Shown here: positions 1,613 to 37,945 of the stretch, piece after piece
How the letters are laid out: every line of letters begins with the position of its first letter
How positions within the stretch are numbered: position 1 is the stretch's first letter
NCBI GenBank assembly: GCA_011525915.1
Contig: WYBM01000068.1
Coordinates: 1-64,000 of the forward strand
Direction: 5' to 3'
Origin: Ardenticatenaceae bacterium
GTDB taxonomy: Bacteria; Chloroflexota; Anaerolineae; Promineifilales; Promineifilaceae
Length of the DNA stretch: 64,000 bases
The notes under the pieces: generated by a model
Databases searched by the model: none
What the model saw: the letters and a program-made list of their open reading frames with translations, nothing else
Told to the model about the DNA's origin: nothing
Position numbers and translations under genes: made by a program

Positions 1613-2437
1613 ATGGTCACACATAACACAGACACCTGGATCGTACATCACAAACCCAATTCCCAGGCAAAATTGCGTCTCTTTTGCTTTCCTTACGCCG
1701 GCAGCAACGCTTCCATTTACCGTACCTGGGCCAGCCACCTGCCGGCAGACGTCGACGTCTGCCCCATACAATTGCCCGGGCGAGGTAGTCGCTTTAAGGA
1801 ACCCCCTTTTACCCACCTGTCCCCCCTGATACAAACATTAATCAGGGTTTTGACACCTTACCTGGATATTCCTTTTGCCTTCTTCGGGCACAGCATGGGG
1901 GCACTTATCAGCTTTGAACTGGCCCGCGAATGCCGCCGCCGTCATATCACTGGCCTGCAGCATTTATTCGTCTCTGGCCGCGGCGCGCCCCATTTACCAG
2001 ACCCCAACCCCCATTTGGCGCAACTGCCAGATACCGAATTCATTGAGAAGCTGCGCCATTATAAGGGCACACCTGAAAATGTTCTGCAAAGTGAAGAGTT
2101 GATGGCCCTTTTTTTTCCTATTTTACGGGCCGATTTTGCCGTTTGTGAAACCTACGTCTATTGGGAAGGTGCACCCTTAAGCTGCCCCATAACCGCCTTT
2201 GGTGGGTTCCAAGACCAGACAGTGCGTACAGACACTGTGCTTGCCTGGCGTCGACAGACAGAAACTATCTTTAAACATTACCTTTTCCCCGGGGATCACT
2301 TCTTTTTGCATAGCAACCAGGAAGCTCTCTGGCAAAGCCTGGCGCAAGAATTGGAACAGGTTATCCATACGTTGGTCGCCTGGCCCAATCCCGACAGTTA
2401 CAAGGAGAGAGACGATGCGTGGTCACGTCCAAATTGA
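1613..2437 (+). CDS. Type II thioesterase (GrsT/RifR family)
   Basis: This 274-residue alpha/beta hydrolase has the family hallmarks: LFCFPYAGSNASIYRTW near the N-terminus, QLPGRGSRFKEPPF, the nucleophile elbow FFGHSMGAL, and the C-terminal His in GDHFFLH. Stand-alone thioesterases of this family remove wrong or stalled acyl groups from carrier domains of NRPS/PKS lines, which fits its place 47 bases after the NRPS stop. ATG 1613 is preceded by a clear AAGGAGA site near 1591. The end overlaps the start of the ABC ATPase by 23 bases, which suggests translational coupling. Confidence in family is high; the peptide it serves is unknown. Confidence 0.93.
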   Translation: MVTHNTDTWIVHHKPNSQAKLRLFCFPYAGSNASIYRTWASHLPADVDVCPIQLPGRGSRFKEPPFTHLSPLIQTLIRVLTPYLDIPFAFFGHSMGALISFELARECRRRHITGLQHLFVSGRGAPHLPDPNPHLAQLPDTEFIEKLRHYKGTPENVLQSEELMALFFPILRADFAVCETYVYWEGAPLSCPITAFGGFQDQTVRTDTVLAWRRQTETIFKHYLFPGDHFFLHSNQEALWQSLAQELEQVIHTLVAWPNPDSYKERDDAWSRPN

Positions 2438-3419
2438 AGGCTTAACCAAATATTACGATGTGAAGGAGCGCAAAGGGCTTTTTAAATCCCATAAAAAGCA
2501 AATTGTGGCCTTACAAGAGGTTTCTTTGGAGATTAAACCTGGGGAAATCTTTGGCTTGTTAGGGCCCAACGGCGCCGGAAAAACAACGCTGATCAAGTGC
2601 CTGACGACATTATTGATTCCCACCCACGGGACGGCTCATATCAACGGCTACCATCTTGGTAAAAGCGACAAACAAATACGCAAGAGCATTGGCTGTATGC
2701 TGATGGGCGAACGGGGTTTATATTGGAAGCTTACCGGCCGTGAAAACCTTTTATTCTTTGGCGCCCTCTATCGGTTGAATGCGGTGGAGCGGGAGCGACG
2801 GGCCGAAGAATTGATCACTCGCTTAAATCTAGCGGGTATTGCTGACCGCGCCGTTGAAACCTATTCATCGGGGCAAAAGATGAAGCTGGCGTTTGCCAAA
2901 GCATTACTTAACGATGCCCCGCTGCTCATCTTGGATGAGCCAACAAACGCCCTGGATTTCCCCACCGCCAGGGAATTACAGGCGTTGGTGCGTGAGATGA
3001 AACGTGAAGGCAAGACCGTGATTTACACCACCCATATCATGGCGGAAGCAGAGCTGTTGTGCGAGCGGGTGGCCATCATTGATCATGGGCAGGTGCTGGC
3101 GCTTGGCCCGGTTCCCGAGTTAAAAGCTTCGTTACAGAAAGAAGAGATCCTGGAAGTTGAAGGGTTGATTCCGGCCGAGGCCGTGGCCGCTTGCCGGCAT
3201 GTGCGGGGTGTTACCCAGACAGCATCTACAGTGGTCGAGGGTGAAACCAGGCTCACGTTAGTCACGGAGGATGCCCGCACCACCTTGCCCCATCTCATTC
3301 GCATATTAACGTCTCACAACACAACCATTTACCAGATAAAACAAAAGGAAACGACATTGGAAGATGTATTCATTGCCCACACTGGGCGCACCCTGGCCGA
3401 AGATACGAGGATACGATGA
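2415..3419 (+). CDS. ABC transporter ATP-binding protein (DrrA-like exporter subunit)
   Basis: This is a 334-residue nucleotide-binding subunit with Walker A GPNGAGKTT, signature YSSGQKMKLAFAKAL (variant of LSGGQ), Walker B LLILDEPT, and the H-loop in TTHIMAEA. A C-terminal extension of about 90 residues after the ATPase core is typical of DrrA/NatA-type subunits that pair with ABC-2 permeases. An upstream in-frame ATG at 2199 lies well inside the thioesterase gene; ATG 2415 has AAGGAGAG just upstream and is the better start. It overlaps the next gene by 4 bases (ATGA). With the two following permeases it probably exports the peptide or gives self-resistance. Confidence 0.93.
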   Translation: MRGHVQIEGLTKYYDVKERKGLFKSHKKQIVALQEVSLEIKPGEIFGLLGPNGAGKTTLIKCLTTLLIPTHGTAHINGYHLGKSDKQIRKSIGCMLMGERGLYWKLTGRENLLFFGALYRLNAVERERRAEELITRLNLAGIADRAVETYSSGQKMKLAFAKALLNDAPLLILDEPTNALDFPTARELQALVREMKREGKTVIYTTHIMAEAELLCERVAIIDHGQVLALGPVPELKASLQKEEILEVEGLIPAEAVAACRHVRGVTQTASTVVEGETRLTLVTEDARTTLPHLIRILTSHNTTIYQIKQKETTLEDVFIAHTGRTLAEDTRIR

Positions 3420-4267
3420 TAAAAGCGCTGACTCTTGACGTTTCGGCTGATTTAGCGGCCGCTGTGGCTGAAGTTCGTTTGCGCCTCATAAACATGAGCC
3501 GCTACCCAGGCCAGCTCATTTTAGAGATATTTTTGCCGATCCTTTTTGCGGCGATGCCTATTTTTCTGAGCCGGGCGGTGCCCAATAGTGACACGGCCGT
3601 TAACTTTCAGATAAACACGGGCACCACCAACTACGTGGCTTATCTTCTGATTGGTTCCACCGCTTACATTATTGTCACCCGGGCCTTTTGGGACGTGGCC
3701 CGCTGGCTGCGCTTTGAGCAGCAGGTGGGGACGCTGGAAGCCATTTTTATGACGCCAACCAACACACTGGTGCTGGCCAGCGGCGTTTCTGTATACAGTG
3801 CCTTGCGGAGTGTGGTTTCCGGCCTTATTGCCTATTTGTTGGGGTGCCTTGTTTTCCGTGTCAACCCTTTTCAAGGAGACGTCTTCCTGGCTATCTTATT
3901 TCTTTTGGTTGGTTTGCCCGCCATGTATGGCCTGGCCTTCATGTTTGGTGCGTTGATCATTCAGATAAAGGAGATGAATGCCTTACTGTCACTGACACAG
4001 TGGAGCATTGCTTTTTTGATGGGGGTATACTATCCGCTGAGTATGTTACCCGCCTTTTTTGGTAACATCGCCTTGTTGCTGCCAATGACCTGGTTGGTAA
4101 ATGGGGTGCGTTCAGCCATACTAGGGGTTGGCTTTTTTCTGGGAACCTGGTATTACGATCTTTTGGTGCTGCTGATGTTTTCTCTGCTGCTGCCTCTGTT
4201 GGGCATCTGGGTTTTCCAGCGTGTCGAGCGCAACACACGCCGACAGCAAGGAATAGGACAATATTAA
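3416..4267 (+). CDS. ABC-2 type transporter permease, first subunit
   Basis: This 283-residue hydrophobic protein has about six predicted membrane segments: near residues 30-50, 75-95, 115-140, 150-175, 185-210 and 235-260. An ABC-2 family stretch reads FEQQVGTLEAIFMTP. It starts within the ATPase stop codon (ATGA overlap), so the two subunits are probably made in equal amounts. The adjacent homologous permease (4269) suggests a heterodimeric channel. It has no signal peptide beyond the first membrane helix. The substrate is inferred from the operon to be the NRPS product. Confidence 0.9.
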   Translation: MIKALTLDVSADLAAAVAEVRLRLINMSRYPGQLILEIFLPILFAAMPIFLSRAVPNSDTAVNFQINTGTTNYVAYLLIGSTAYIIVTRAFWDVARWLRFEQQVGTLEAIFMTPTNTLVLASGVSVYSALRSVVSGLIAYLLGCLVFRVNPFQGDVFLAILFLLVGLPAMYGLAFMFGALIIQIKEMNALLSLTQWSIAFLMGVYYPLSMLPAFFGNIALLLPMTWLVNGVRSAILGVGFFLGTWYYDLLVLLMFSLLLPLLGIWVFQRVERNTRRQQGIGQY

Positions 4268-4268
4268 C

Positions 4269-5159
4269 ATGGATAACAGCGTGCTCACCTCAGAGCCTAC
4301 AAGCAGAACCAGGGAACCGGCATTACCCGCCCTACGGGCATGGGTAGACATGTTTGGGGTGATGATACGGAAAGAGTTTGTCATTAAAACCCGTTACCCT
4401 GTTGAGTTGGTGGCCGGGTTCGCCCAAACGTTTGTGATGATAGCCATCTTCACGCTGGCAACGCTGGCATTTACCAGTGGAGATGATGCGTCAACGGCCG
4501 TGCCGGGCTTAAACATTTACAGTGTGGTCATTTATGGTTTCATTCCCTTCATCTTCCTGACAGAAACATTGTGGGGCATCGGCTTCAACATTCGCCGCGA
4601 ACAAATGCAAGGGACATTGGAAAGCGTCTTTCTCAGCCCCGCTTCACAGGCAGCTAACCTCATCTCGCGGGTGGTGATTATGCTGGCCTGGACAGGACTG
4701 CTCTCCATCCTGGCTGTCATCCTCATGCGTTTCCTTACCAGAGAAATCCCTTATGCCAATCTGCCGCTGGCCTTGTTTATCTTAGGGATGACACTGTCAG
4801 GCACTTTTGGCGTTGGCTTTGCGTTTGCGGCCGTGACACTGTACATTAAACAGACAGCCGAAACCCTGGTGAACTTTTTCCAGTTTGCCTTTATGATTTT
4901 TTGCGCCCCATTTATTCCCTTTGCTATATTGCCCGCCTGGGTGCTGGTGGTTTCCAAGTTTATTCCCCTGGCATATGGCGTCGATGCTTTTCGCTCAACC
5001 TTGATGAATTACCCACCTGGTTTTCCGGAATTGGCACCCCTCAACGTTGAGCTTGTTATTGTGACACTGTTTGGCCTATTGGCCCCCCCCCTAGGGCTGT
5101 GGCTCTACTACCGGGCGGAAGCGCACGCCAGACAAACAGGTAGTTTGGGTATCTACTAA
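4269..5159 (+). CDS. ABC-2 type transporter permease, second subunit
   Basis: This 296-residue membrane protein is related in layout to the preceding permease and shares the coupling-helix region with motif REQMQGTLESVFLSP, equivalent to EQQVGTLEAIFMTP in the neighbour. Hydrophobic segments occur near residues 50-72, 88-110, 130-150, 160-190, 205-230 and 260-280. ATG 4269 follows the previous stop by one base. The hydrophilic N-terminus of about 30 residues (TSEPTSRTREPA) would be cytoplasmic. The pair plus the DrrA-like ATPase form a complete exporter. Confidence 0.9.
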   Translation: MDNSVLTSEPTSRTREPALPALRAWVDMFGVMIRKEFVIKTRYPVELVAGFAQTFVMIAIFTLATLAFTSGDDASTAVPGLNIYSVVIYGFIPFIFLTETLWGIGFNIRREQMQGTLESVFLSPASQAANLISRVVIMLAWTGLLSILAVILMRFLTREIPYANLPLALFILGMTLSGTFGVGFAFAAVTLYIKQTAETLVNFFQFAFMIFCAPFIPFAILPAWVLVVSKFIPLAYGVDAFRSTLMNYPPGFPELAPLNVELVIVTLFGLLAPPLGLWLYYRAEAHARQTGSLGIY

Positions 5160-5175
5160 TGGGTGGAGGAACTTT

Positions 5176-5943
5176 ATGAAATGGAGCAACAATCATTCGC
5201 CTGCGTCCCCGTCTGGCGCCCTGATCAGGTTAGAACATGTCGTCAAGCGCTTTCCTGTAAGTGACAAGGAGATCACGGTGCTGCACGACATTACATTAGA
5301 AGTACACGCTGGCGAATTTGTGTCCGTCGTTGGCCCTTCCGGCAACGGTAAATCAACCCTGTTAAACATGATCACAGGCATAGATCGCCCCAGCGAAGGT
5401 ACCGTTCGTGTGGCCCATCATCCCGTCCATGAAATGAGTGAAGGTCAACTGGCCACCTGGCGCGGCCAGTATGTGGGCGTTATTTTTCAGTTCTTTCAGA
5501 TGCTGCCAGGGCTCAGCCTGCTGCACAACGTGATGCTGCCCATGGATTTTGTGCGCAAATATCCGCCTAAAACGCGCAAGGAGCGGGCCATGCATCTGTT
5601 GGATCTGGTGGATCTGGCCGATCAGGCCCACAAATTACCGGGCATGGTCTCTGGCGGGCAGCAACAACGGGCGGCTATTGCCCGGGCGCTGGCCAATGAT
5701 CCCCCGCTCATCATTGCCGACGAGCCCACAGGGAACCTGGACACCCATACGGCCGAGAAGGTTTTTTCTTTGTTTGAAGCAGCCATCACCCAGGGGAAAA
5801 CGATGTTAATGGTTACCCACAATCATGAACTGGCCGAAAGGACGCCGCGTCAGGTAGAGATAAGAGACGGCCATATTGTTAAAGATTCATTGGCAGCCGA
5901 AACGGCCGTGGCCGGAGGAAACAATGGGCGTCATTCAGCATAA
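5176..5943 (+). CDS. ABC transporter ATP-binding protein (MacB/LolD-like)
   Basis: This 255-residue ATPase has Walker A GPSGNGKST, signature SGGQQQRAAIARAL, Walker B LIIADEPTGNLD and H-loop MLMVTHNHE. The TGNLD extension and the HDITLEVHAGEFVS start are typical of the LolD/MacB/FtsE branch that partners FtsX-fold permeases, which matches the gene that follows. ATG 5176 has GGAGG near 5164. The end overlaps the next gene by 20 bases. This is a second ABC system in the same operon. The family moves lipids, lipoproteins or peptides, or drives envelope remodelling, often in response to antimicrobial peptides. Self-protection against the NRPS product is an inference. Confidence 0.92.
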   Translation: MKWSNNHSPASPSGALIRLEHVVKRFPVSDKEITVLHDITLEVHAGEFVSVVGPSGNGKSTLLNMITGIDRPSEGTVRVAHHPVHEMSEGQLATWRGQYVGVIFQFFQMLPGLSLLHNVMLPMDFVRKYPPKTRKERAMHLLDLVDLADQAHKLPGMVSGGQQQRAAIARALANDPPLIIADEPTGNLDTHTAEKVFSLFEAAITQGKTMLMVTHNHELAERTPRQVEIRDGHIVKDSLAAETAVAGGNNGRHSA

Positions 5944-8311
5944 GATTTGGCACGACTTGTGGTACCACAAAGCACGGACATTTCAGGTCGTGCTGATCAT
6001 TGCCATAGGGGCTGCGGCCATTGGTGTCATTGTGGGCGCACGTACCCTGGTTATCGCCGGTATGACCAGATTGTGGCAGGAATCTTCACCGGCCATGATT
6101 ACCATGTGGGCAAACCCGGCCGTTGATGACGATGTGCTTAACTCACTGGCCAAGGTAGAAGGGCTGGTGGGCGTAGAAGGGTATAACTACGTAGATATCG
6201 CCTGGCGTAGAAGCCCTGAAGACCGTTGGCGCCCCGCCGCCCTCATTGCCCGGGACGATTATGCAGAGCAAAGTTTCACCAAGTTAGATCTGTTAAGTGG
6301 CTCCTGGCCGCAAAGCAAGACCTTCGCCATTGGTCAGGGTGCCGGTGCTGTTTTTGGTGTTGACGAAGGGGCTCAGATTCACATTCGCATCAACGACGAC
6401 GAAGAAGTGGTCGCTATCGGCGGTGTCGTTTATGATCCCATTGCCCAGCCACCGAGTTTTGGCGGTAACGTCCAGTTTTTTACCACCCGTGAACGCCTGG
6501 GTGAGCTAACCGGTGACCAGAATTTTAACCGCATTCTGGCCCGAGCCCCCGCATTCAACCAACAAGCCGTCACGCAAACGGCCAACGCCATCAAGGAGAA
6601 GTTGGAAAAACAGGGCGTGGAAACTGGCGGTTTCCTGCCCCCGTTTGGCAGCCGTATTGCTGACCCGGAGCAACACTTTTTCCAGGCGATCATGGACGGA
6701 GTATTTCTCATTTTGGGCATTATGGCGCTGCTCTCGCTCTTTTTAGGGCTGTTTCTTGTCTACAACACAATCGAAGCCATTCTCAGCCGCCAGATCAACC
6801 AGATCGGCATTATGAAGGCCATTGGCGCCAAATCATCCCAAATATTCCTCATTTATCTGGGTAATATCTTTGCCTACAGCTTCTTTGCCTTGCTCATCGC
6901 CGTGCCCATTGGCATTATTGGCAGCTGGGGGCTTAGCGTCTTTTTATTAAACAACTTCAACGCGGACCCTGGTTCCTTTAGAATCGCCTGGCTGGCCATT
7001 GGCGCCCAGGTGGCTATTGCTCTGCTGGCACCTTTGTTGGCCTCGCTCATACCCATTTTGTCTGGGGTGCGCATCTCGGTTCGTGAGGCCATCAATACCT
7101 ATGGTCTGCAAGCCGCGCCTGGTATTTTGGGCCGGCTGCTGGTCAAAGCCACCTTCTTGCCGCGGTTAGTGGTCTTGGCCATCAGCAACACATTCCGGCA
7201 TAAGGGCCGCGTGATCCGCACCCAAATTACACTGGTATTTAGCGGCATTATCTTCATCGTGGTTATGAGCGTGCGCGACTCTACCATTTATACTTTCAGT
7301 GATGTGCTGCGCACCGTTAACCAATATAACGTTTTCCTCATTTTCCAAAACCCACAGCGAATCAGCCGGTTGGAATCACTAGCATACCCAGACGTGCGTC
7401 AGACTGAGATGTGGTACAGGGGCAGCGGCAGAATTCGCCTGAAAGACAGCGCCACTTCGGCTGACGAGCCCGCTGTTTCTATCACTGGGTTACCCAGTGA
7501 CACGCAGCTCTACGTCCCTCAAATGCGCCACGGCCGTTGGCTATTACCCGATGACCGGCAGGCGATCGTCTTAAACGAGCGTGTTGCCCAGGCAGCCGGC
7601 ATTGAAGTTGGCCAATGGGTAACCATTGATCACGGCATCGAGGGGGAAACCGCCTGGCAGGTGGTGGGGTTGTTATTTGACCCTAACAGTATCACCTCTG
7701 CCCATGTGCCCCGAGATACGCTGTTAAGGGAATTGGGCAGCGTTGATAGAGTAGACCGCATCTACATACAGACGATTTCCGGCACGGCCAATGAAGCCGC
7801 CAGTGAACAAAACTTACGGGACTATTATGAGCAATTGGGGGTTGAACTCAGCCCGGGCGGCGGCACACTGTCAGAAATAGCCGATGACGTCATGGGACAG
7901 TTTGCCATCATTGTTAACCTGATGGCCATTATGGCCATCCTCATTGGTTTGGTAGGCAGCGTCGCCTTAAGTGGGGTTTTATCCCTTAATGTCATTGACC
8001 GGCAACGAGAAATTGGCGTGATGCGGGCTATTGGTGCATCTTCGGTGGATGTGAGCCTGTTGTTCATCGGTGAAGGGGTGATTTTGGGGTGGTTAAGCTG
8101 GCTTATTGCCCTGCCGTTTACGCTGCCGCTGAGCCAATTGATGACCCAAGGCCTGGGAGCGGCCGTACAGGTTAGTATTGTGCACAGGTATACGTTGACG
8201 GGGGCGGTGGCCTGGTTGGGCATTATTACCATCTTATCAATTGCGGCCAGCTTTTTCCCGGCGCGGCGTGCCATGCAAACCAGCGTGCGTGAGAGCATTG
8301 CTTACCAATAA
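5924..8311 (+). CDS. FtsX-like (ABC3/MacB) permease, large two-repeat form
   Basis: The protein has 795 residues from ATG 5924 (GGAGG at 5915-5919); an ATG at 5876 in the same frame would overlap the ATPase more and has no good site. The layout is one N-terminal helix (KARTFQVVLIIAIGAAAIGV), a large extracytoplasmic domain, three helices around residues 260-400, a fourth helix starting a second repeat near 430, a second extracytoplasmic domain, and three C-terminal helices. The paired motifs RQINQIGIMKAIGA and RQREIGVMRAIGA are the conserved FtsX-fold stretches, one per repeat. Both halves are fused, so the protein may work as a pseudo-dimer with a dimer of the preceding ATPase. No periplasmic adaptor gene is seen. 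Confidence 0.9.
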   Translation: MGVIQHKIWHDLWYHKARTFQVVLIIAIGAAAIGVIVGARTLVIAGMTRLWQESSPAMITMWANPAVDDDVLNSLAKVEGLVGVEGYNYVDIAWRRSPEDRWRPAALIARDDYAEQSFTKLDLLSGSWPQSKTFAIGQGAGAVFGVDEGAQIHIRINDDEEVVAIGGVVYDPIAQPPSFGGNVQFFTTRERLGELTGDQNFNRILARAPAFNQQAVTQTANAIKEKLEKQGVETGGFLPPFGSRIADPEQHFFQAIMDGVFLILGIMALLSLFLGLFLVYNTIEAILSRQINQIGIMKAIGAKSSQIFLIYLGNIFAYSFFALLIAVPIGIIGSWGLSVFLLNNFNADPGSFRIAWLAIGAQVAIALLAPLLASLIPILSGVRISVREAINTYGLQAAPGILGRLLVKATFLPRLVVLAISNTFRHKGRVIRTQITLVFSGIIFIVVMSVRDSTIYTFSDVLRTVNQYNVFLIFQNPQRISRLESLAYPDVRQTEMWYRGSGRIRLKDSATSADEPAVSITGLPSDTQLYVPQMRHGRWLLPDDRQAIVLNERVAQAAGIEVGQWVTIDHGIEGETAWQVVGLLFDPNSITSAHVPRDTLLRELGSVDRVDRIYIQTISGTANEAASEQNLRDYYEQLGVELSPGGGTLSEIADDVMGQFAIIVNLMAIMAILIGLVGSVALSGVLSLNVIDRQREIGVMRAIGASSVDVSLLFIGEGVILGWLSWLIALPFTLPLSQLMTQGLGAAVQVSIVHRYTLTGAVAWLGIITILSIAASFFPARRAMQTSVRESIAYQ

Positions 8312-8335
8312 CCGGCAAAACCAGGAGAGATTTCT

Positions 8336-9391
8336 ATGAATTACGCACACATCACTGGCTGGGGAAGTTATTTGCCAGAGCAGATATTAACGAACGAGGA
8401 TATCGCCAGGACCATCGACACCACCGATGCCTGGATTCGGCAGCGAACGGGCATTGGCCAGCGGCGGATTGCTGCCAGCCGCGATACGACAACCGGTCTG
8501 GCACTGCAAGCGGCACTGCGAGCGTTGGCGGTAGCTGGTTTACCGGCGGCTGATGTTGAGTTGATCATTGTCGCTACCTCGACACCGGACTATATGTTCC
8601 CCTCTACCGCTTGCCAGGTGCAGGGTCATCTGAATGCCACACGAGCGGGCGCTTTTGATTTAAGCGCGGCTTGTTCCGGGTTTGTTTATGCGCTGCACAT
8701 GGCCACCCAGGCCGTCGCCACCGGCTCTGTCAGCAATGCGCTGGTCATTGGCGCGGAGATGATGTCCCGTGTGTTAGACTGGCAAGATCGGGAGACGTGT
8801 GTCTTATTTGGTGACGGTGCCGGAGCTGTTGTCTTGCAGGGATCGTCCCGGCCAGGGGGCGTGTTAACATCAAAGCTGCGTTCCGATGGGTTGCAAAGCG
8901 ATATTTTGTGTTTGTCGGCTGCCAATAGCAACCCCATACCTGCGCTTAGCTCTGAAAATGGGCATGCCCGCCCGGTGCAGAACACCATAAGCATGAACGG
9001 CCGTCGTGTTTTTCGCTTTGCCACGCGCGTTTTAGTGGAGTCCGTGCAGGATATATTGGCCATGGCAAACCTGACATTAGACGATATCTCCCTGATTGTA
9101 CCCCATCAGGCCAACTTTCGTATTTTGGAGAGCGCGGCGAAGCAGCTAGGTGTGTCACCGGAACTTTTCTATACAAACCTTGAAGATACAGGCAATACCT
9201 CGGCTGCCTCTATTCCAGTGGCCCTGTGCAAGGCGGTTGAAGACGGCCGTATACACTCGGGCGATCATCTGATCTTGGTGGGATTTGGCGGCGGCTTGAC
9301 CTGGGCTTATGCCTTAGTCGAATGGCAGAAAGATGTAGCCAGCATATATATACCGGCTACTTATCACGCCGCCGCCTTCGCTAGAGCTTAG
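8336..9391 (+). CDS. Beta-ketoacyl-ACP synthase III (FabH-like)
   Basis: This 351-residue thiolase-fold enzyme has all three residues of the Cys-His-Asn triad: DLSAACSGFVYAL (Cys), VPHQANFRI (His) and EDTGNTSAAS (Asn). The N-terminus GWGSYLPEQILTNEDIARTIDTTDAWI is classic FabH, and AGG AGA precedes ATG 8336. The family condenses an acyl-CoA starter with malonyl-ACP. Placed 24 bases after an exporter gene in an NRPS operon, it may make or transfer a fatty acyl or short acyl unit for the peptide, as FabH-like enzymes do in lipopeptide and hybrid pathways. It could also be the housekeeping enzyme, but no other fatty acid genes are adjacent. Confidence 0.9.
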   Translation: MNYAHITGWGSYLPEQILTNEDIARTIDTTDAWIRQRTGIGQRRIAASRDTTTGLALQAALRALAVAGLPAADVELIIVATSTPDYMFPSTACQVQGHLNATRAGAFDLSAACSGFVYALHMATQAVATGSVSNALVIGAEMMSRVLDWQDRETCVLFGDGAGAVVLQGSSRPGGVLTSKLRSDGLQSDILCLSAANSNPIPALSSENGHARPVQNTISMNGRRVFRFATRVLVESVQDILAMANLTLDDISLIVPHQANFRILESAAKQLGVSPELFYTNLEDTGNTSAASIPVALCKAVEDGRIHSGDHLILVGFGGGLTWAYALVEWQKDVASIYIPATYHAAAFARA

Positions 9392-9510
9392 AGTGTGTCC
9401 ATATTCTAAAACACGGGCTGGTCGTTGAAATCACCTAGAACAAGTGGCTGCAAGGGACGCCAATTTACCCCTGCTTGTCACTTTATCACCTTGTCACTAA
9501 ACTTCCCCCC

Positions 9511-10299
9511 ATGTCTGATGAAATTATCTTTACCATAGAGAAACAGGTTGCCACCTTAACGGTTAACCGACCGGCGGCGCGGAATGCGCTGAATTGGGCG
9601 GCACAGGATAAGTTTGCCAAAACGGTCACGGCCGTGGCCGAAGACCCTATGATCCGTGTTCTGATCATCACCGGGATAGGGCGGCAAGCCTTTGTGGCCG
9701 GTGGTGATTTAAAAGAGTTAAGCGGCCATCCCGAACCAGAAGCCGGGGCGCGGCTCAACCACATTATGGGCGGCGCTTTGCAGCAGCTTACGGCCTTGCC
9801 TATTCCGGTGATAGCGGCTGTCAATGGTGACGCCTTTGGGGGCGGCTGTGAAATTTTAACGGCTTGCGACCTGCGCATAGCCCACAGCAGCGCCCGCTTC
9901 AGTTTTGCCCAGATCAAAAATGCGCTGACCACTGGCTGGGGTGGTACCAGCCGGCTGGTGCGGCTGGTGGGCCACAGCCGGGCAATGGAGCTGTTATTGA
10001 CAGGGCGGCTGCTTACCGCCCAGGAAGCGCAGCATATGGGGCTGGTGCACCGGGTGGTGGCGCCAGGGGAAGGTTGGGAGACGGCCGTGTACGGTTGGGC
10101 CCATGAATTAACGCAGTTTCCGGCGGCTGCGTTGGCGGCCCTGAAGCAATTGACCTACGCTGCCGCAAACCTTTCTGTGGCCGAAACCAACCAGTTGGAA
10201 ACACAGCACTTCGTCCAGTTGTGGTCACACCCTGATCATCTGGAGGCAATGGCTGCCTTTGGGGAAAAACGCCCCCCCTTCTTTAACACCAGCCCATAG
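9511..10299 (+). CDS. Crotonase-superfamily enzyme (enoyl-CoA hydratase/isomerase-like)
   Basis: This 262-residue protein has the crotonase fold signature: oxyanion-hole segment FVAGGDLKEL, then VNGDAFGGGCEILTACDLRIA, then GGTSRLVRLVG. In alignment with enoyl-CoA hydratase, the Glu in GGGCE (first catalytic acid) is kept. The second catalytic Glu (in the family motif FGQPEI) falls on a Gln in FSFAQIK. That argues against a simple hydratase and leaves isomerase, decarboxylase or other crotonase chemistry possible. ATG 9511 is preferred; a TTG at 9475 would add 12 residues, and neither has a strong Shine-Dalgarno site. It lies 119 bases after FabH and may be the last gene of the biosynthetic operon. 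Confidence 0.87.
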   Translation: MSDEIIFTIEKQVATLTVNRPAARNALNWAAQDKFAKTVTAVAEDPMIRVLIITGIGRQAFVAGGDLKELSGHPEPEAGARLNHIMGGALQQLTALPIPVIAAVNGDAFGGGCEILTACDLRIAHSSARFSFAQIKNALTTGWGGTSRLVRLVGHSRAMELLLTGRLLTAQEAQHMGLVHRVVAPGEGWETAVYGWAHELTQFPAAALAALKQLTYAAANLSVAETNQLETQHFVQLWSHPDHLEAMAAFGEKRPPFFNTSP

Positions 10300-10340
10300 A
10301 CACTTCGCCTATGGATATACGCCCGCACAATTTCTACCTC

Positions 10341-10690
10341 TCAATCAGAGAGACTGTGTTCAACCATATATATTTCATCACGCCCTTTTATCTTGCGCTC
10401 GCCATGCTGCTTGTAAAAGCCGTTGGAGCCAATGGGAACAAAATGTCCTATCAAGGCGTCAGCCCGCTGCAAGCCGGCCAGCCAACTGAGCGACTCCAGT
10501 CCGACTTCGGTCATGGCTTTGTGGAAGCTAGGATCGGCAAAGGAGACATTAGGGATGCCGTGAGGGATCAGTCGGTGGCGATAGCCTCACACAAGTCAGT
10601 GGTGAAGGTGGCGATGCCGCATTAGCGCGGCAAATAATTGCCGATGAACCCAATGTGGCTGATGGTTGAATGGGTTGAGTTGTACTCCAT
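10341..10690 (-). pseudogene. Decayed GT4-type glycosyltransferase
   Basis: Read on the minus strand from ATG 10690, the frame gives HIGFIGNYLPR, then a TAA (10622-10624), then CGIATFTTDLCEAIA. Intact family members have PR-Q-CGIATFT here, so a CAA-to-TAA change is likely. The frame stops at 10568. A second frame (open from 10586 to the stop at 10341) continues with LIPHGIPNVSFADPSFHK, which resembles the central HGIPxVPFxDP stretch of the same glycosyltransferase group, and then ends in unfamiliar sequence. Nonsense change, frameshift and loss of most of the gene together indicate a dead remnant. I worked from remembered family motifs, so the assignment is moderate. Confidence 0.6.
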
Positions 10691-10701
10691 AGTTGTAAAT
10701 C

Positions 10702-10932
10702 CTAAACAATCCAGTGTATAGAAGGCCATGTTTGACTTAAATACGCTAACAAGACATCCATCCGATCATAGCTTTCTATAATGGAAAGTAGATGGCGAAC
10801 ATTTTCAGTTGGATACGCTTGTGCCTTGCTTGCCTGACTATAGCGGGCAACGGCCGTTTTCTCAGCTTTGGTGGCTAGAGAAAAACACTCCTTTCCTTTG
10901 TTAAGTACACCCTGCCTCGTATGGGTGCTTCT
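10702..10932 (-). pseudogene. Open frame without a start, possible gene remnant
   Basis: On the minus strand a 76-codon open frame runs without any ATG near its beginning. It reads like real protein (KAEKTAVARYSQASKAQAY, then ENVRHLLSIIESYDRMD) and stops at 10702-10704, 11 bases before the ATG of the glycosyltransferase remnant. The composition is helical and amphipathic. I do not recognise it. It is probably a 3' fragment of another decayed gene. Confidence 0.3.
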
Positions 10933-10942
10933 TCAGCCTGCC

Positions 10943-11077
10943 TTACAAACCGGAAATTTCAGGATTCTCCTTTCTGTCTTTTTTGTCTTTTTTCTCTCTT
11001 TTGGCCTGCTTTTTTTCCTTTAAAGTTTTTGCTGGTTTGTTCTTGCCCTTCTTTTTATCATTCTGGCCTTTACTCAC
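10943..11077 (-). CDS. Small Lys-rich basic protein (44 aa)
   Basis: A GTG start at 11077 is preceded by a strong AAGGAGA site (minus strand, near 11084-11091). The 44-residue product has about 19 lysines and four acidic/Lys stretches (MSKGQNDKKKGKNKPAKTL at the start, ending in NPEISGL). Such short highly charged proteins are seen in many bacteria and are usually annotated as hypothetical. A nucleic-acid or ribosome association is plausible from charge alone. There is no membrane segment and no cysteine. It stands alone between the pseudogene region and a response regulator. Confidence 0.65.
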   Translation of the reverse strand: MSKGQNDKKKGKNKPAKTLKEKKQAKREKKDKKDRKENPEISGL

Positions 11078-11113
11078 AATAATTTCTCCTTATGATTTCC
11101 TGATCGTTTGATC

Positions 11114-11174
11114 TACTGGACACTGATGACTGATTACCTGGCAAAAGTCCAAAGTTATTTTTGAACGAACCGTT
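11114..11174 (-). repeat. Dispersed intergenic repeat, copy A, ending in three CAGT heptads
   Basis: Read on the minus strand from the response-regulator stop codon, this stretch matches the DNA just after the lipid-kinase stop (31449-31510) almost base for base over about 55 positions. It includes a shared GGACTTTTGCCAGGTAATCA. It ends in heptads CAGTCAT, CAGTGTC and CAGTAGA. Both copies sit directly after a stop codon and in the same orientation relative to the gene. Confidence 0.8.
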
Positions 11175-11595
11175 AGGCTTCATATGATTTTGCTGTTCCG
11201 AAAGCTGCCCGCGTGACATTGAGCAGGGTGTCTACGTCATAGGGTTTCCGTAAAAACGTGGGCAGCTCTTGTTTCCCAAAACGGGCTCTGGCCTCTGCCT
11301 GGCTCAAACTTGAAGAAATGATCACCCCGACCTGGGGTGCGATCTGCTGCAATTTTTCATAAGTTTGCTGACCGTTCATCACTGGCATTTCTACATCAAG
11401 GAAAATCAGGGTGATGTGCTGCTGCTCTTGAAAAACCTGTAAACCTTCGTGTCCATTGGCCGCGGTATATATGGGCATCTCCAGGAAAAGGCTAAGGATG
11501 TCGGACAGCACCTTACGAATGGCAAAATTGTCGTCAATGATGAGAATGGCCCCTTGGGGCGTTTTTATAGGCAGAACATTACTTTGATCGTTCAT
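11173..11595 (-). CDS. Single-domain response regulator (REC only)
   Basis: A 140-residue receiver domain protein with the acidic pair in ILIIDDN, the phospho-acceptor Asp in LIFLDVEMPVMNG, a Ser/Thr switch region (IISSSLS) and the conserved Lys in FLRKPYD. There is no output domain, so it acts as a CheY/Spo0F-like relay or protein-interaction switch. ATG 11595 is preferred to the upstream TTG at 11634, whose extra residues are not receiver-like. No kinase is adjacent; the nearest is the GAF-type kinase at 13989. Confidence 0.88.
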   Translation of the reverse strand: MNDQSNVLPIKTPQGAILIIDDNFAIRKVLSDILSLFLEMPIYTAANGHEGLQVFQEQQHITLIFLDVEMPVMNGQQTYEKLQQIAPQVGVIISSSLSQAEARARFGKQELPTFLRKPYDVDTLLNVTRAAFGTAKSYEA

Positions 11596-11704
11596 AAACG
11601 ATGTTTTTCCCTCTGGCAATCGCCCCCGTAACAAGCGATGTCCGGGATCGGGATGTTATCTTAATAACGACGTTCATGTTGTTTGTTCCGGCTGCTGGTA
11701 ACGC

Positions 11705-12097
11705 TTAATCGGCTATAAGCATAAGCTGCTGCGAGCATTCGGCAGCAACCTGGTCGTCAGGTCTTGCCTCACCAGGCATTGTGGCCCATCCTTGCTCTTG
11801 GATATACCTGGCACGCTGGAAAGTACTGGGTAAAGCCTTTAATTCCTCAAGTTTCTGATCTCTCAGTGGGTCTTGGTTAAACTGCATAACACAGATGGGT
11901 GCCAGGCGCTCGATAACAGCGCCTTGGGATGCGCTCTTGGCCATTCGTTGAGCAGACCCCCCTGTCATCCAGCCGCCACGAGAAAAGCCAAGAAACAAGG
12001 TGAGCGTAATGGCACCAATGGCGACCCAGAAGGCCGCCATTTTTGTCAGTTTTGCTTCGGCCCATCTTTGTCGAATAGTTGCTATATTGGCTTGCAT
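11705..12097 (-). CDS. Small single-pass membrane protein, unknown function
   Basis: This 130-residue protein starts at ATG 12097 with AAGGAG upstream (CAAAGGAGAAAAACG). A short cytoplasmic N-terminus (IRQRWAEAKLTKM) is followed by one membrane helix (AAFWVAIGAITLTLFLGF) and then GGWMTGG, with a soluble tail holding two cysteines (one in ICVMQF, one in AAECSQQ). I do not recognise a named family, though TM proteins with a GGWxTGG tail occur in other bacteria. An upstream GTG or ATG would add residues not supported by a ribosome site. It is flanked by receiver-domain genes, so a link to signalling is possible but unproven. Confidence 0.75.
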   Translation of the reverse strand: MQANIATIRQRWAEAKLTKMAAFWVAIGAITLTLFLGFSRGGWMTGGSAQRMAKSASQGAVIERLAPICVMQFNQDPLRDQKLEELKALPSTFQRARYIQEQGWATMPGEARPDDQVAAECSQQLMLIAD

Positions 12098-12232
12098 CGT
12101 TTTTCTCCTTTGTGAATCGCAGGGCAAACCACCAGCTTGCCCTGCACTTCTCATTCATGGTGGTGTATACCATCCATGTTATTTCCTGGGTCCATCATTT
12201 ATTTGGTTCCAGAAAAGATATATACGCTGTTA

Positions 12233-12592
12233 TCATAAACGAATATTTGCGGCGGCTCGCAGGCGTTCTACCACGCGGTCAGGTGTCTCGCTTTTACTGA
12301 TAAAGCTGTCGGCTCCGGCAGAAAGCGCAGCTTGCTGACGTGCATCCAGATGGCTGATGAGGACAATGACAACGGCCGTCGGGCAGGTTACACGCAGTTC
12401 AAGAAGCGAAGCGTTTGTGGGGATTAAGTCCCAATCCACCACCACCATATCAGGGTTTGTCCCTGCGGCCTGGGTTAAAGTTGTAGGCCAGTCGGCCGCA
12501 TCACCGACGACCTGCATGTTTAAGTCGAACAGCAATAGTCGTAATGCTGAACGGACTTCCAGATGGCTGTCGGCTAAAAATACACGGGTCAT
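12233..12592 (-). CDS. Single-domain response regulator (REC only)
   Basis: 119 residues with receiver-domain layout: VFLADSHLEVR at the N-terminus, the likely phospho-acceptor in VVVDWDL (Asp), ISHLD and the Lys in FISKSETPD. The first acidic pair is weakened: ADSH keeps one Asp where two acids are normal, so metal binding may be altered. It resembles the receiver of NarL-type regulators with the DNA-binding domain missing. ATG 12592 is the start. The following minus-strand gene is 112 bases downstream. Confidence 0.82.
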   Translation of the reverse strand: MTRVFLADSHLEVRSALRLLLFDLNMQVVGDAADWPTTLTQAAGTNPDMVVVDWDLIPTNASLLELRVTCPTAVVIVLISHLDARQQAALSAGADSFISKSETPDRVVERLRAAANIRL

Positions 12593-12616
12593 GCGTTCAT
12601 ACTCCAGTAACCAAGA

Positions 12617-12862
12617 TTAATCTGGGGAGTCTTTTGCTACTTGTTTTGCCAAAAGGAATTCTTGCCAGGCTTCATTAAAAACAGCAATGTGTCCCGGTTC
12701 AGCGATTCTAATAACAATATCGGCCCAGCTCTTATGTTCATCGGGCTTGCGCCTTGAGAGTTTATGATCACTGTCCTGCATCTTCAGAACACGCGCCAGA
12801 TCACCAATAAGGTCCTCTCTATTTTGTTGGTGAGTGAGCCACTCCTCAAATCTTAGAATCAT
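12617..12862 (-). CDS. Hypothetical small protein (81 aa)
   Basis: A soluble 81-residue protein starting MILRFEEWL. The pattern FEEWLTHQQNREDLIGDLAR followed by WADIV and FNEAWQEFLLAK is somewhat like the YozE SAM-like fold, where an N-terminal FxxWL and a GDLA stretch are common. That resemblance is weak and from memory. It lies 24 bases upstream of a receiver gene and 12 bases downstream of the next small gene on the same strand, so the three could share a transcript. Confidence 0.65.
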   Translation of the reverse strand: MILRFEEWLTHQQNREDLIGDLARVLKMQDSDHKLSRRKPDEHKSWADIVIRIAEPGHIAVFNEAWQEFLLAKQVAKDSPD

Positions 12863-12874
12863 CGTCTACTGCTT

Positions 12875-13126
12875 TCAGGTAATGATGTAGCGCCCTTTGT
12901 GTTGACTCAGCGTGAGAGTCTTTGTCTCATTGTCCAGTTTGCGAGCAATATTCCAGCCGGTGGCGCCATTTTTGAAGTAGATATCATACCGTGCCGACTC
13001 GGCCGATAAGACGCAAACTTCACCAGGGTCAGCCACACAGGTGCTGACAAGTGTAGGGCCTATAAATATTTGCGCCTGCACCCTTATGTTTATCTTGTTG
13101 TGGAATGTCACTTCTGTCTCGATCAT
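12875..13126 (-). CDS. Hypothetical small protein (83 aa)
   Basis: From ATG 13126 (AAGG seven bases upstream) the product is an 83-residue beta-rich protein starting MIETEVTFHNKINI. It contains two cysteines (VSTCVADPGEVCVL) and a repeated ThrLeuThrLeu tail ending GRYIIT. It has no signal peptide or membrane helix. The length and strand pattern suggest a small beta-sandwich; I cannot assign a family. A GTG at 13150 would add eight residues. Confidence 0.6.
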   Translation of the reverse strand: MIETEVTFHNKINIRVQAQIFIGPTLVSTCVADPGEVCVLSAESARYDIYFKNGATGWNIARKLDNETKTLTLSQHKGRYIIT

Positions 13127-13333
13127 ATTTTTGCCTTCTGTGTATGTCACTCGAACGATGCTCTAATCACAAATGGAAAACGTTTACGGCCGTTTGTACA
13201 TAGTGTGGGGCCTGAGTTAATCATAGAAGCATTACTTCTCAACGGCATCGGCTGGTCAGGGGATATGTAGCTCCACCAGTTGGGGGATAAAGGATGGGGA
13301 TGAGGAGGAGATGAAGCGGGGTGACGAACGGCC

Positions 13334-13359
13334 GTTGAGTAAACGGCCGTTTACTCAAC
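13334..13359. terminator. Perfect 26-bp palindrome over the response-regulator stop codon
   Basis: The arms GTTGAGTAAACGG and CCGTTTACTCAAC are exact inverted repeats with no loop, centred on an ACGGCCGT octamer. The stop codon of the minus-strand response regulator (13351-13353) lies inside it, and a further ACGGCCGT begins at 13328. There is no T-run, so an intrinsic terminator is uncertain; mRNA 3'-end protection or protein binding are alternatives. Confidence 0.6.
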
Positions 13360-13992
13360 AAGATGGTGGCGTACGGCTAACGCGACGGCTTCTGTGCGGC
13401 TGGTGACACCCAACTTGGCCAGGATATGGCTGACATGGGATTTGATGGTGGAAGGGCTGACAACCAGTTTCTCGGCGATCTCAGTATTGTTTAAGCCGGC
13501 GACCATCAAGATCAATACGGTTTGCTCGCGGTTCGTCAGGTCGTGGCCTGTTGGTGGCGGTTGCGTGGTGGCGTGTACCAACGCCTGGGTAGCCTCCGGA
13601 GAAAGTGTGCTGCGGCCAGCATGTGCTGCGCGGATAGCCTCGGCCAGTTTTTCCGCCGACACGTCTTTAAGCAAATAGCCAATAGCTCCCGCTTGCAGCG
13701 CGTCTTGCACCAACGTCTCTTCTTTGAAACTGGTCAGTACTATGACCTGTACGGTAGGAAATCGTTGGCGAATAATGCCGGTGGCTGTTACACCGTCCAT
13801 AGTCGGCATGACTATATCCATGAGGATCACGTCAGGCAGGGTGCTTGCACACAGTTGGAGTGCCGCCTCCCCATCGGCTGCCTCGCCGATCAGTTCCAGG
13901 TCGTCAAAAACCTTCAAGAAAGTGGCTAGGCCGCGGCGCACCATCGTATGATCATCAACGAGCATCACCTGTATAGGCTGAAAAGGGGTCAT
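13351..13992 (-). CDS. NarL/FixJ-family response regulator
   Basis: 213 residues: a receiver domain (acidic pair in VMLVDDH, phospho-acceptor in DVILMDIVMPTMDG, Lys in YLLKDVS) and a C-terminal LuxR-type helix-turn-helix (LTNREQTVLILMVAG then NTEIAEKLVVSPSTIKSHVS). It overlaps the histidine kinase stop by four bases (ATGA), so the pair is translationally coupled and functions as a two-component system. The target genes are not known; the secreted-protein gene divergent from the kinase is one candidate. Confidence 0.95.
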   Translation of the reverse strand: MTPFQPIQVMLVDDHTMVRRGLATFLKVFDDLELIGEAADGEAALQLCASTLPDVILMDIVMPTMDGVTATGIIRQRFPTVQVIVLTSFKEETLVQDALQAGAIGYLLKDVSAEKLAEAIRAAHAGRSTLSPEATQALVHATTQPPPTGHDLTNREQTVLILMVAGLNNTEIAEKLVVSPSTIKSHVSHILAKLGVTSRTEAVALAVRHHLVE

Positions 13993-15572
13993 AGCGCCTC
14001 CTGTCCCGAGGTTTTCGGCCAGCGGATGAAGATTTCGGAGCCGTAACCTGGCTGGCTGGCAACTGATAAAAATGCACCAATGGCGTTGGCCCGCTCTCGC
14101 ATCATGCTTAAGCCGTAATGACCCGATGGGATGTGCGCCAGATCGAAGCCCTGACCGTTATCAAGGATGTGTAATTCCACCGAGCCGGCGTTATATTGCA
14201 GATTGATTACCACCTGGCTGGCCATAGCATGTTTGGCAATGTTGTTCAGAGCTTCCTGACAGAGACGGTAAAATGCCACTTGCACCTCGGCAGGCAAGGA
14301 GCCTTTTTCTGTTATAGTTACAGTGACCGGAATGTTTGTCCGACCTGTGAGTGCATCGCCCAACTGGTGCAGCAGGTTACCTAGTTCAGAATCAGTCAAG
14401 ACCAGGGGGCGCAGTTCGGCCAGCAGGCCGCGCATCTCAGCCATGGCGCCACGTGTTAACCGACGCAAGTCCTCCAGCGACTGACGCGCTTCATCCGGGT
14501 TTCGCTCCCACAGACGTGGCAGGACTTCGGCGATCAGGCTGGCGGAGAAGAGTGACTGGTTGACGGCATCGTGCAGATTCTGCGCCAGGCGTTGGCGTTC
14601 TTGCAAAGTGGCGAGCGTTTGCGCCTGTTCGTACAATTGGGCATTAACCATCGCAATAGCCGCCTGATTGGCCACGGTCGAGGCCAGGTTGGCGTGGTGA
14701 GCAGTGAAGGCATCTGGCTCTGCATGAACAACACCAATGCCACCAATGCCCCGATCCTTTACGGCCAGGGGAACCCACATCCACGCCTTTGCACCTGCTA
14801 ACAATACCGCTGCCTGATCGTTCAGCAGTGACCGGAGAAACTGTGCTGCCGGGTCGTCACTCCATACGTTAGCAATTCGTTGGGGTTGGTGTCCATTCAA
14901 CAGCGTCGCCAGTGTCGCCGGCACATGCAGGTGGACGCGGAGGGGCATGGCTTGCTCCAACTGCTGGGGTCCACGCACGGCCAGGGCGACTAGGTCTAAT
15001 CCTTCCAACGCGAAGAGTACAGCATGCGTGTACTCGATAATCATTTGCAGTTGGTCGAGGATCAAACCTGGTTTTAGTTCCAGTGCAGAGGCCAGCGTTT
15101 GGGAGATCTCCAACAGAGTGAACTGCTCACGGGTGTGGGCTGCCACCTGCTGCCGGAGTAACTTTTCAGCCTGGACCCGTTGGCTGACATCACGGACTAC
15201 ACACAGGAGACAGAGTCGATCTTGATAGGTACAGCCTGTCCCGCGTACCTCGACGGTGAACGGTGTACCATCCTGGCGCATATGGACGACGGTCGCCTCA
15301 AACATGTTGCCTGCTCGGACTGTCTCGGTCCACTCAGCAAACTGAGCATGACTATCTGGGTGCATGAACGCGGCTGGGGACGAGCCAATGAAATCCTTGT
15401 GGGCATAGCCATGCAGGGCGCTGGCGGCGGGATTGGCCTCGATCACCAGACTGGTTTCGATGTCGTTGAGGATTAGCCCATCACTAACCGCTTTAAAAAT
15501 GTGCCGATACGGCCGTTTTTTGTCATCAGGCTGCAAGTGACGCTCCTCGCTGCCGGTAGATGCTGTAGACAA
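13989..15572 (-). CDS. PAS-GAF sensor histidine kinase (HisKA_3 type)
   Basis: 527 residues with no obvious membrane helix, so probably cytoplasmic. The order is a PAS domain (about 20-135, YRHIFKAVSDGLILNDIETS), a GAF domain (about 150-310), a HisKA_3 dimerisation domain with the phospho-acceptor His in RQRLAQNLHDAVNQSLFS, and a HATPase_c domain with N-box EALNNIAKHA and ILDNGQGFDL. This is the standard partner of NarL-type regulators. No ATG is near the N-terminus: TTG 15572 is the best annotated start but remains uncertain because the frame stays open further upstream. Confidence 0.92.
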   Translation of the reverse strand: MSTASTGSEERHLQPDDKKRPYRHIFKAVSDGLILNDIETSLVIEANPAASALHGYAHKDFIGSSPAAFMHPDSHAQFAEWTETVRAGNMFEATVVHMRQDGTPFTVEVRGTGCTYQDRLCLLCVVRDVSQRVQAEKLLRQQVAAHTREQFTLLEISQTLASALELKPGLILDQLQMIIEYTHAVLFALEGLDLVALAVRGPQQLEQAMPLRVHLHVPATLATLLNGHQPQRIANVWSDDPAAQFLRSLLNDQAAVLLAGAKAWMWVPLAVKDRGIGGIGVVHAEPDAFTAHHANLASTVANQAAIAMVNAQLYEQAQTLATLQERQRLAQNLHDAVNQSLFSASLIAEVLPRLWERNPDEARQSLEDLRRLTRGAMAEMRGLLAELRPLVLTDSELGNLLHQLGDALTGRTNIPVTVTITEKGSLPAEVQVAFYRLCQEALNNIAKHAMASQVVINLQYNAGSVELHILDNGQGFDLAHIPSGHYGLSMMRERANAIGAFLSVASQPGYGSEIFIRWPKTSGQEAL

Positions 15573-15849
15573 AACTTGACAGTTCTGTGCTTCAAAAGAA
15601 TGACAGCATGTGCCGTAGATATGTCATTTTGTGGCACTGGTCAGGCATATACACAGGGCAGCATAAAGCTAGTGTAACTGAACATACTGTGGTTGTCACT
15701 CTTTGAGAAACCCTTAAAACAACAGGCAAGGCCGGCCTGGCTCTGGTAAAATCAGGTAGCCCGGCGTGCGTTTAAGGGCTTGCTATCAGTCGCTACACAG
15801 CCATCATCGTAACCAGGACGCAGCTTGAGAAAACTATGCGGAGGCGTTT

Positions 15850-31448: not shown

Positions 31449-31510
31449 CGCAACGGTTTGTTCAAACAAAACTCTGGACTTTTGCCAGGTAATCAGTCGG
31501 CAGTGTCCAG
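31449..31510 (+). repeat. Dispersed intergenic repeat, copy B
   Basis: Matches the minus-strand copy at 11114-11174 for about 55 bases, including GGACTTTTGCCAGGTAATCA and a shared AACGGTT-TTCAAA segment near its start. It begins a few bases after the lipid-kinase stop codon and runs into a heptad array. Confidence 0.8.
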
Positions 31511-31601
31511 TAATCAGTGTCCAGTAGTCAGTGTCCAGTAGTCAGTGTCCAGTAGTCAGTGTCCAGAAGAGCAGCCAACTGAATACCGCCAACTGAATAC
31601 C
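31494..31601 (+). repeat. CAGTNNN heptad array and 14-base doublet
   Basis: Eleven consecutive 7-base units start at 31494 (CAGTCGG, CAGTGTC, CAGTAAT, CAGTGTC, CAGTAGT and so on to CAGAAGA), so a 14-base doublet of CAGTGTC and CAGTAGT repeats. Then GCCAACTGAATACC occurs twice in tandem (31574-31601). No protein is encoded. The region to 31679 between the convergent lipid kinase and hydrolase genes holds nothing else. Confidence 0.85.
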
Positions 31602-37484: not shown

Positions 37485-37945
37485 TGCCCGGCTTCCATCG
37501 TTGCCTACAATTCAAAGAAAGTTTATGCAAATTCAAAGGGAAATTTATTGCATTTTTATGGGTGCGTCCTGTAAGATAATTTGTGTCAGAGAGTTTTTCA
37601 TGTACTGGTTTTGTGTGTCATTGTGCTTTAGGGGCTGCTCTGGGCGTGGATGTCACACCATAAAATTCACCTGTTTTGTATTGGCCTGGTAAATAATTAA
37701 ATACACTGTTACAGAAATTATATAACTAGGGAAAGGTCTTGTGCCTGCCCCTACCAAAGTGCGGTTTTTACGTAATACTGTATTAAACAGCGCTTCGGTT
37801 GGGTCTGCTGTTTCCTGATGTTTTTGTTTGCAAGAACAGTCAGGTTCTGGGAAATCAGTGGTTGGTTGAAGGCGTCAAGCCGGTAAAGAAACCTGTTTAA
37901 GTCACCCCTGTCGGTGCAAAATGCTGCCCTAAGAGGAGTATGCTC
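37485..37945. other. Long leader of the giant surface-protein operon
   Basis: 461 bases without a gene. The first half is AT-rich. A weak hairpin (AAACAGC 37785-37791 with GCTGTTT 37807-37813) lies in the second half. GAGGAG at 37933-37938 is the ribosome site for the giant gene that follows. I looked for a riboswitch and found no match. Confidence 0.5.

Follow-up and report, generated by a model that had tools for sequence, protein, structure and literature searches.

The crotonase gene at positions 9511-10299 of the window, the whole 64,000-nucleotide stretch of DNA analyzed here, encodes a protein in which the second catalytic glutamate of enoyl-CoA hydratase (ECH), Glu164, is replaced by glutamine, and which belongs to a bacterial clade of crotonases with glutamine or histidine at this position (the Q/H clade). 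The chances are about even (a probability of roughly 0.5) that the protein, judged from its sequence and those of its relatives, is an ECHDC1-like alkylmalonyl-CoA decarboxylase acting on methyl- or ethylmalonyl-CoA. This reading was favored because of 1) the tentative placement of a provisional ECHDC1 sequence with the clade, 2) the lost Glu164 and 3) a weak association with methylmalonyl-CoA mutase genes. The substitution noted in the preliminary description of this DNA is real and its hint about the chemistry is plausible; the partnership with FabH and the NRPS that it proposed is unsupported.

Catalytic residues and predicted fold

The open reading frame matched the PF00378 profile (E 1.9e-53, 181.8 bits against a cut-off of 27), and the AlphaFold (AF2) model of the protein, with a mean pLDDT of 96.5, retrieved crotonase folds in a structure search with Z about 35 (5jbx, Z 35.4; 3kqf, Z 35.2). 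The protein thus has both the profile match and the predicted fold that characterize the crotonase superfamily. The nearest solved folds among the 50 best structure-search matches were mostly hydratases or dehydratases, and no entry titled ethylmalonyl-CoA decarboxylase occurred among the best 60 sequence-search and 50 structure-search matches to solved structures. Of 71 NCBIfam models, the 25 listed included none whose curated cut-off the protein reached. The gene and the codons of interest are as follows, where Q/H and E-type refer to the residue at column 134 of a 98-sequence alignment described below.

9511-10299, + strand: crotonase of 262 amino acids, Q-type, with the Glu144 equivalent kept and Gln as the Glu164 equivalent (PF00378, clade, AF2 model)
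9850-9852, + strand: codon GAA of Glu114, equivalent to ECH Glu144 (alignment to solved crotonases)
9910-9912, + strand: codon CAG of Gln134, equivalent to ECH Glu164 (alignment to solved crotonases)
9937-9939, + strand: codon of Trp143 (GWG), found in 49/49 Q/H and 11/49 E-type sequences
10222-10224, + strand: codon of Trp238, found in 48/49 Q/H sequences (the remaining one is a fragment) and in 1/49 E-type sequences (L032)

A comparison with solved crotonases placed Glu114 on the Glu144 position and Gln134 on the Glu164 position of ECH. The canonical pair of catalytic glutamates is consequently incomplete, E114 being present and Q134 standing in for Glu164, as had been claimed from the letters of the gene. 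In a profile alignment, the same two residues fell on Glu113 and Glu133 of M. sedula 3HPCD (PDB 5zai), the catalytic residues named in an excerpt of PMC6048173. Wild-type M. tuberculosis crotonase (3pzk) has Glu in the column of Gln134, and the entry 4fjw, titled as the E131Q mutant of that enzyme, has a Gln aligned on Gln134. A limited literature search turned up no description of Gln occurring naturally at the Glu164 position.

According to PMC13126182, the water molecule is activated in ECH by Glu144, whereas the C2 proton is proposed to come from Glu164. The DmdD mutation E141A, at the Glu164 position, cuts MeSH release about 88,000-fold in kcat/Km (PMC3660561, in the excerpted part). Because of these roles of Glu164, activity as a normal hydratase is unlikely for the window crotonase.

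The Q/H clade and its genomic neighbors

The 98-sequence set consisted of the window crotonase, 17 further loci found in a search of 400 genomes belonging to the phylum, and the 80 top-ranked of at least 563 confirmed places in genome contigs. Column 134 held Glu in 49 sequences, Gln in 41 and His in 8; since the sample was limited to these top-ranked places, the Q/H share of 49/98 is not a frequency in nature. In a maximum likelihood tree (quick search, column 134 removed), the Q/H clade was one branch of 48 rows (39 Q, 8 H and 1 E) with an SH-aLRT of 99, and Q and H interchanged within it. Dropped from the tree were L058 (a fragment), L005 (a near copy of L006) and L091 (a near copy of L018), along with the weak own-genome matches C6:229768 and C6:251108; alignment A2 was made without L005, L058 and L072. 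Glu114 was present in all 49 Q/H sequences, and Gly65 in 45/49 of them as compared with 2/49 of the E-type. The window crotonase carries the signature of Q/H together with W143 and W238. By their record titles, most of them MAGs, the Q/H crotonases come from Chloroflexota, Bacillota, Pseudomonadota, Rokuibacteriota, Binatota and others.

Within the taxonomic family, 39 of the 52 genomes had a match to the crotonase at E 1e-60, and Gln was found in 29 of the 30 loci returned from these 39 matches, the window included. A sequencing error at the Gln134 codon was ruled out on this count, and the residue is thus more than a chance event. The exception, L155, has Glu. It appears as L032 (6001-6777) in the larger set, a close orthologue, 64% identical, that has Glu at the Glu164 position and keeps W/W/H, so that Gln is not absolutely required there. 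L032 is a naturally occurring case in which a return of hydratase activity might be looked for. The counts from the 98-sequence set and the family set overlap, because each of the pairs L018/L091, L032/L155 and L029/L151 apparently represents a single record.

These sequences bear on the idea that the protein is a hydratase that degenerated once Glu164 was lost, inactive or merely able to bind CoA. The same substitution was engineered into M. tuberculosis crotonase (4fjw), a mutation at this site nearly abolishes DmdD activity (PMC3660561, in the excerpt), and 2 of the 39 family matches contain an internal stop codon. However, the other 37 have none, Gln and His replace one another inside the clade, and Glu114, Gly65 and both tryptophans are retained at the frequencies given above in several phyla, so decay of this kind is very improbable.

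The genome that contains the window has no second member of the clade among the 11 paralogues placed in the tree, and the next best match in it is 38% identical. The two weak matches on C6 (G000:C6:229768-230319 and C6:251108-251620) are 26% identical to the crotonase; one of them lies inside an open frame of 7589 amino acids, and they are possibly crotonase domains of a giant synthase.

Human ECHDC1 is a (m)ethylmalonyl-CoA decarboxylase; the sequence of it that was used in the tree was a provisional one rather than a database record. In the ECHDC1 tree, from which five long-branch rows were also dropped, it joined the Q/H branch (49 rows, SH-aLRT 98) but on a long branch of 2.35; because the sequence is provisional and the branch is long, its exact place is unsure. 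The provisional sequence has E/H/W/W at positions 114/134/143/238, and when it was compared by BLAST with the rows of the tree, the 20 top-ranking matches were all Q/H.

Neighboring genes were compared at the 97 other loci. The sequence covered at least 3 kb on both sides of the crotonase at 61 of them and at least 5.5 kb on both sides at 48, and it extended 1.4 kb or more upstream at 90. Methylmalonyl-CoA mutase adjoined the crotonase at L012, L048, L056 and L072, all of them Q-type, which amounts to 4/48 Q/H as against 0/49 E-type loci, a weak difference (Fisher p 0.056). Among 14 loci of the class to which G360 belongs, with flanks of up to 1.5 kb, the mutase was linked in one, the G360 locus already counted. 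A mutase is encoded in 50 of the 52 family genomes, so its co-occurrence in the family is uninformative. CoA-transferase III was near five Q-type loci and one E-type locus, and at L056 it lay just upstream of the crotonase. The clade that takes in the provisional ECHDC1 and, weakly, the mutase neighbors fit the earlier suggestion that a Gln in place of Glu164 signals a non-hydratase, possibly a decarboxylating enzyme; of that suggestion, the first half is likely and the second is the even chance stated at the outset.

The most common neighbor was a class I methyltransferase (PF13649 and others in the domain search), encoded near the crotonase and on the same strand in 21 of the 97 loci (20 Q/H and L032) and directly after it in 19 of these 21. 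One methyltransferase query found a match in 15 of 30 family loci, most of them with 1.5 kb flanks. Such a gene (e.g. L029:6820-7593) is often the direct neighbor of the crotonase in Anaerolineae-like genomes.

The methyltransferase and the CoA-transferase III genes would suit a different reaction served by one glutamate, in which the protein is a thioester hydrolase, an isomerase, a C-C lyase or a slow hydratase of a special substrate, perhaps coupled to the methyltransferase, and many chemistries are possible on the crotonase fold (PMC3660561). However, the placement with the provisional ECHDC1 and the mutase neighbors point elsewhere, and the known one-glutamate isomerases in an excerpt of PMC13126182 use the Glu164 position, which is lost here, or another loop. 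We regard this explanation as rather unlikely, though still to be taken seriously.

Location of the crotonase gene

From the contig edge, the + strand carries a run of genes that ends with FabH and is followed by the crotonase. The rest of the NRPS is out of view, because the window begins at base 1 of the contig (C64). The features of the window that set the scene are:

177-1565, + strand: C-terminal part of an NRPS (AMP-binding_C, PCP, TE), truncated where the contig begins (domain search)
1613-2437, + strand: type II thioesterase (thioesterase domain, PF00975; domain search)
2415-8311, + strand: ABC systems, a Drr-type ATPase with two ABC-2 permeases, then a LolD/MacB-type ATPase with an FtsX-like permease; the first ORF was listed from 2199 and has an ATG at 2415
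8336-9391, + strand: FabH (KAS III), motifs intact, itself the second full copy in its genome and 63-64% identical to the other FabH of the genus (domain search, motifs)
9467-10279, + strand: segment that blastn aligns with the crotonase loci in five genomes of the same genus ( starts 9467-9490, ends 10272-10279)
37940-44344: repeat protein of 2134 amino acids with FG-GAP, PKD, Kelch and DUF11 domains (domain search)
44361-61337: protein of 5658 amino acids with PKD, Big_1, RHS repeats and a pretoxin Hint domain (domain search)

FabH is intact beside the crotonase, as first described. It scored above its NCBIfam cut-off (427 versus 249 bits) and keeps the motifs ACSG from residue 112 (Cys113), PHQAN from 256 (His257) and GNTSA from 286 (Asn287), which we take to be the Cys-His-Asn triad. 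In five same-genus draft genomes, the relatives found at E 1e-40 were 63-64% identical or more distant. Pieces 90% and 87% identical to the FabH DNA at 8748-8923 and 9200-9328, respectively, occur on the minus strand at 343-638 of L108 (G000:C29), where they abut at a contig end and the central part of the gene is absent, as in a decayed further copy. About 120 non-coding bases separate FabH from the crotonase. Two promoters and two terminators were predicted at 8200-10700, with no clear excess over shuffled sequence.

The five same-genus genomes encode a crotonase 77-78% identical to the window copy in a different neighborhood. Only the crotonase in their loci, one of which is a stretch of just 3.8 kb, matched window positions 1-37,900 at E 1e-15, and a GH18 gene lies directly after it in three genomes and within about 2 kb in two. 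The genome under study has its own copy of the GH18 gene (PF00704) at C85:62145-63131, adjoining the only close methyltransferase homologue in the genome (C85:61342-62127). No crotonase or remnant of one was found at C85:62000-64200 (best E 1.2), and six methyltransferase queries against window positions 9401-15600, downstream of the crotonase, gave nothing below E 0.7. The crotonase has probably moved, since the same-genus copies lie near GH18 and here GH18 and the methyltransferase are on C85 without it. The segment at 9467-10279 approximates what was relocated, because the blastn similarity stops on both sides. This is most simply explained by a move of just the crotonase gene to its place next to the NRPS/FabH island; a small residual chance is left to an assembly misjoin that brought the two together.

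Positions 11109-11171 and 31454-31516 of the window contain a repeat, some 60 bases long, that was found in at least 37 other places of the genome (40 scored of 169 first-look candidates for the whole query). At the C85 site, a 45-base stretch with 89% similarity to it adjoins GH18, at the place of the crotonase in the relatives. The repeat could have helped the crotonase to move, or its presence could be chance. Just after the crotonase, positions 10408-10692 are 79-87% alike, in pieces, to a gene of 769 amino acids at C44:56004-58313, presumably a glycosyltransferase, and are probably a decayed fragment of that gene.

The preliminary description placed the crotonase in an NRPS operon, where it and FabH would act together in the peptide pathway. 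A recruited tailoring enzyme of this kind would work with FabH on acyl-CoA or acyl-ACP and so start or decorate the non-ribosomal peptide. Several observations lend themselves to this explanation, 1) the crotonase is the next gene after FabH, on the same strand and in one run with the NRPS/TE, the type II TE and the exporters, 2) its new place in this genome could itself be a recruitment and 3) the window FabH has no relative closer than 64% in the five same-genus genomes. However, the gap between the two genes is about 120 bases, the key residues of the crotonase are the same as in its family relatives and, with no close second copy, the general role of the protein would still need to be served. 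Moreover, no relatives of FabH, the type II TE or the MacB-like genes were found among the neighboring ORFs of the 97 other loci within the flanks covered (BLAST, E 1e-8), and FabH was likewise not found at the 29 further loci of the family, where the flanks extended up to 1.5 kb. When used as a query against the 97 loci, the window NRPS piece matched at one Glu-type locus (L106), and the window ABC ATPase matched generic transporters among the neighbors.

The linkage of the crotonase to NRPS and FabH is thus not kept in relatives. What stands of the operon claim is the shared run on the + strand with the NRPS C-terminus. The FabH-crotonase partnership in the peptide pathway was rejected because FabH was not found in the neighborhoods covered elsewhere and the same-genus genomes locate the crotonase differently, and recruitment as a tailoring enzyme is improbable. 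The place of the crotonase behind FabH and the NRPS terminus is best read as a relocation in one genome rather than a dedicated peptide-pathway operon. The window crotonase probably keeps the general role of its family, because none of the 11 own-genome paralogues in the tree belongs to the clade. The case is a caution that a single genome is insufficient for assigning a gene to a biosynthetic cluster.

A second NRPS at 37940-61337 was also considered and was ruled out by the domains of the two long proteins listed above. The larger of them has 35 RHS-repeat stretches in its second half, an architecture that we take to be that of polymorphic RHS-type proteins.

Proposed chemistry and comparison with known crotonases

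In the decarboxylation that we infer for the window crotonase, the backbone NH groups of Gly65 and Gly111 would bind the thioester carbonyl. Gln134 is neutral and, like a His in its place, would not repel the malonyl carboxylate and might form a hydrogen bond near it. Once CO2 had left, the oxyanion hole of Gly65/Gly111 would contain an enolate, which Glu114 or water could then reprotonate. ECHDC1 is a metabolite-repair enzyme, and the window crotonase would be its prokaryotic counterpart. The genome that contains the window encodes methylmalonyl-CoA mutase in two genes, and a search of it for carboxyltransferase gave three matches. The usual neighbor of the family, a methyltransferase, is unexplained by the decarboxylase reading.

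More tentatively, the Q/H crotonases may form an unnamed prokaryotic ECHDC1-like branch that clears ethyl- and methylmalonyl-CoA arising from unselective carboxylases, with Gln and His interchangeable and a methyltransferase as partner in Anaerolineae-like bacteria. Should the clade indeed consist of ECHDC1-like decarboxylases, then metabolite repair acting on branched malonyl-CoA would be old and spread over several bacterial phyla. Members of the clade may well be named enoyl-CoA hydratase despite the lack of the second catalytic glutamate. The overall interest of the finding is modest, and the putative bacterial ECHDC1-like clade is the part of most value for further study.

The window crotonase resembles ECH, EchA8 and PaaF in its fold, its oxyanion-hole region and its Glu144 equivalent, and differs from them in having no Glu164 equivalent. 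It has Trp238, where the E-type sequences have Phe in 30/49 and Trp in one, and position 65, mostly Gly in the Q/H clade, is Ala in 46/49 of the E-type. In carboxymethylproline synthases of the CarB/CorB type, the two catalytic positions likewise carry a Glu and a Gln, the Gln corresponding to Glu144 and the Glu to Glu164. By this description, their order is the reverse of that in the window protein, which sets them apart.

E. coli ScpB, a methylmalonyl-CoA decarboxylase of the same superfamily, catalyzes the reaction proposed for the window crotonase. However, its alignment puts Pro in column 134, it has neither of the tryptophans (the five key columns read E/P/L/Y/Y) and it falls outside the Q/H clade on a long branch; a ScpB-like assignment was ruled out on these residues and this position.

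ECHDC1 acts on ethyl- and methylmalonyl-CoA and has a highly conserved Glu in its GGGAEFTT motif, as stated in PMC6717113; this Glu corresponds to the position of Glu114 in the window crotonase. By its provisional sequence, ECHDC1 is roughly 30% identical to clade members, has in common with the window crotonase the lone Glu at the Glu144 position and both tryptophans, and tentatively falls in the same clade. The window protein is bacterial and has Gln at the Glu164 position, where the provisional ECHDC1 has His.
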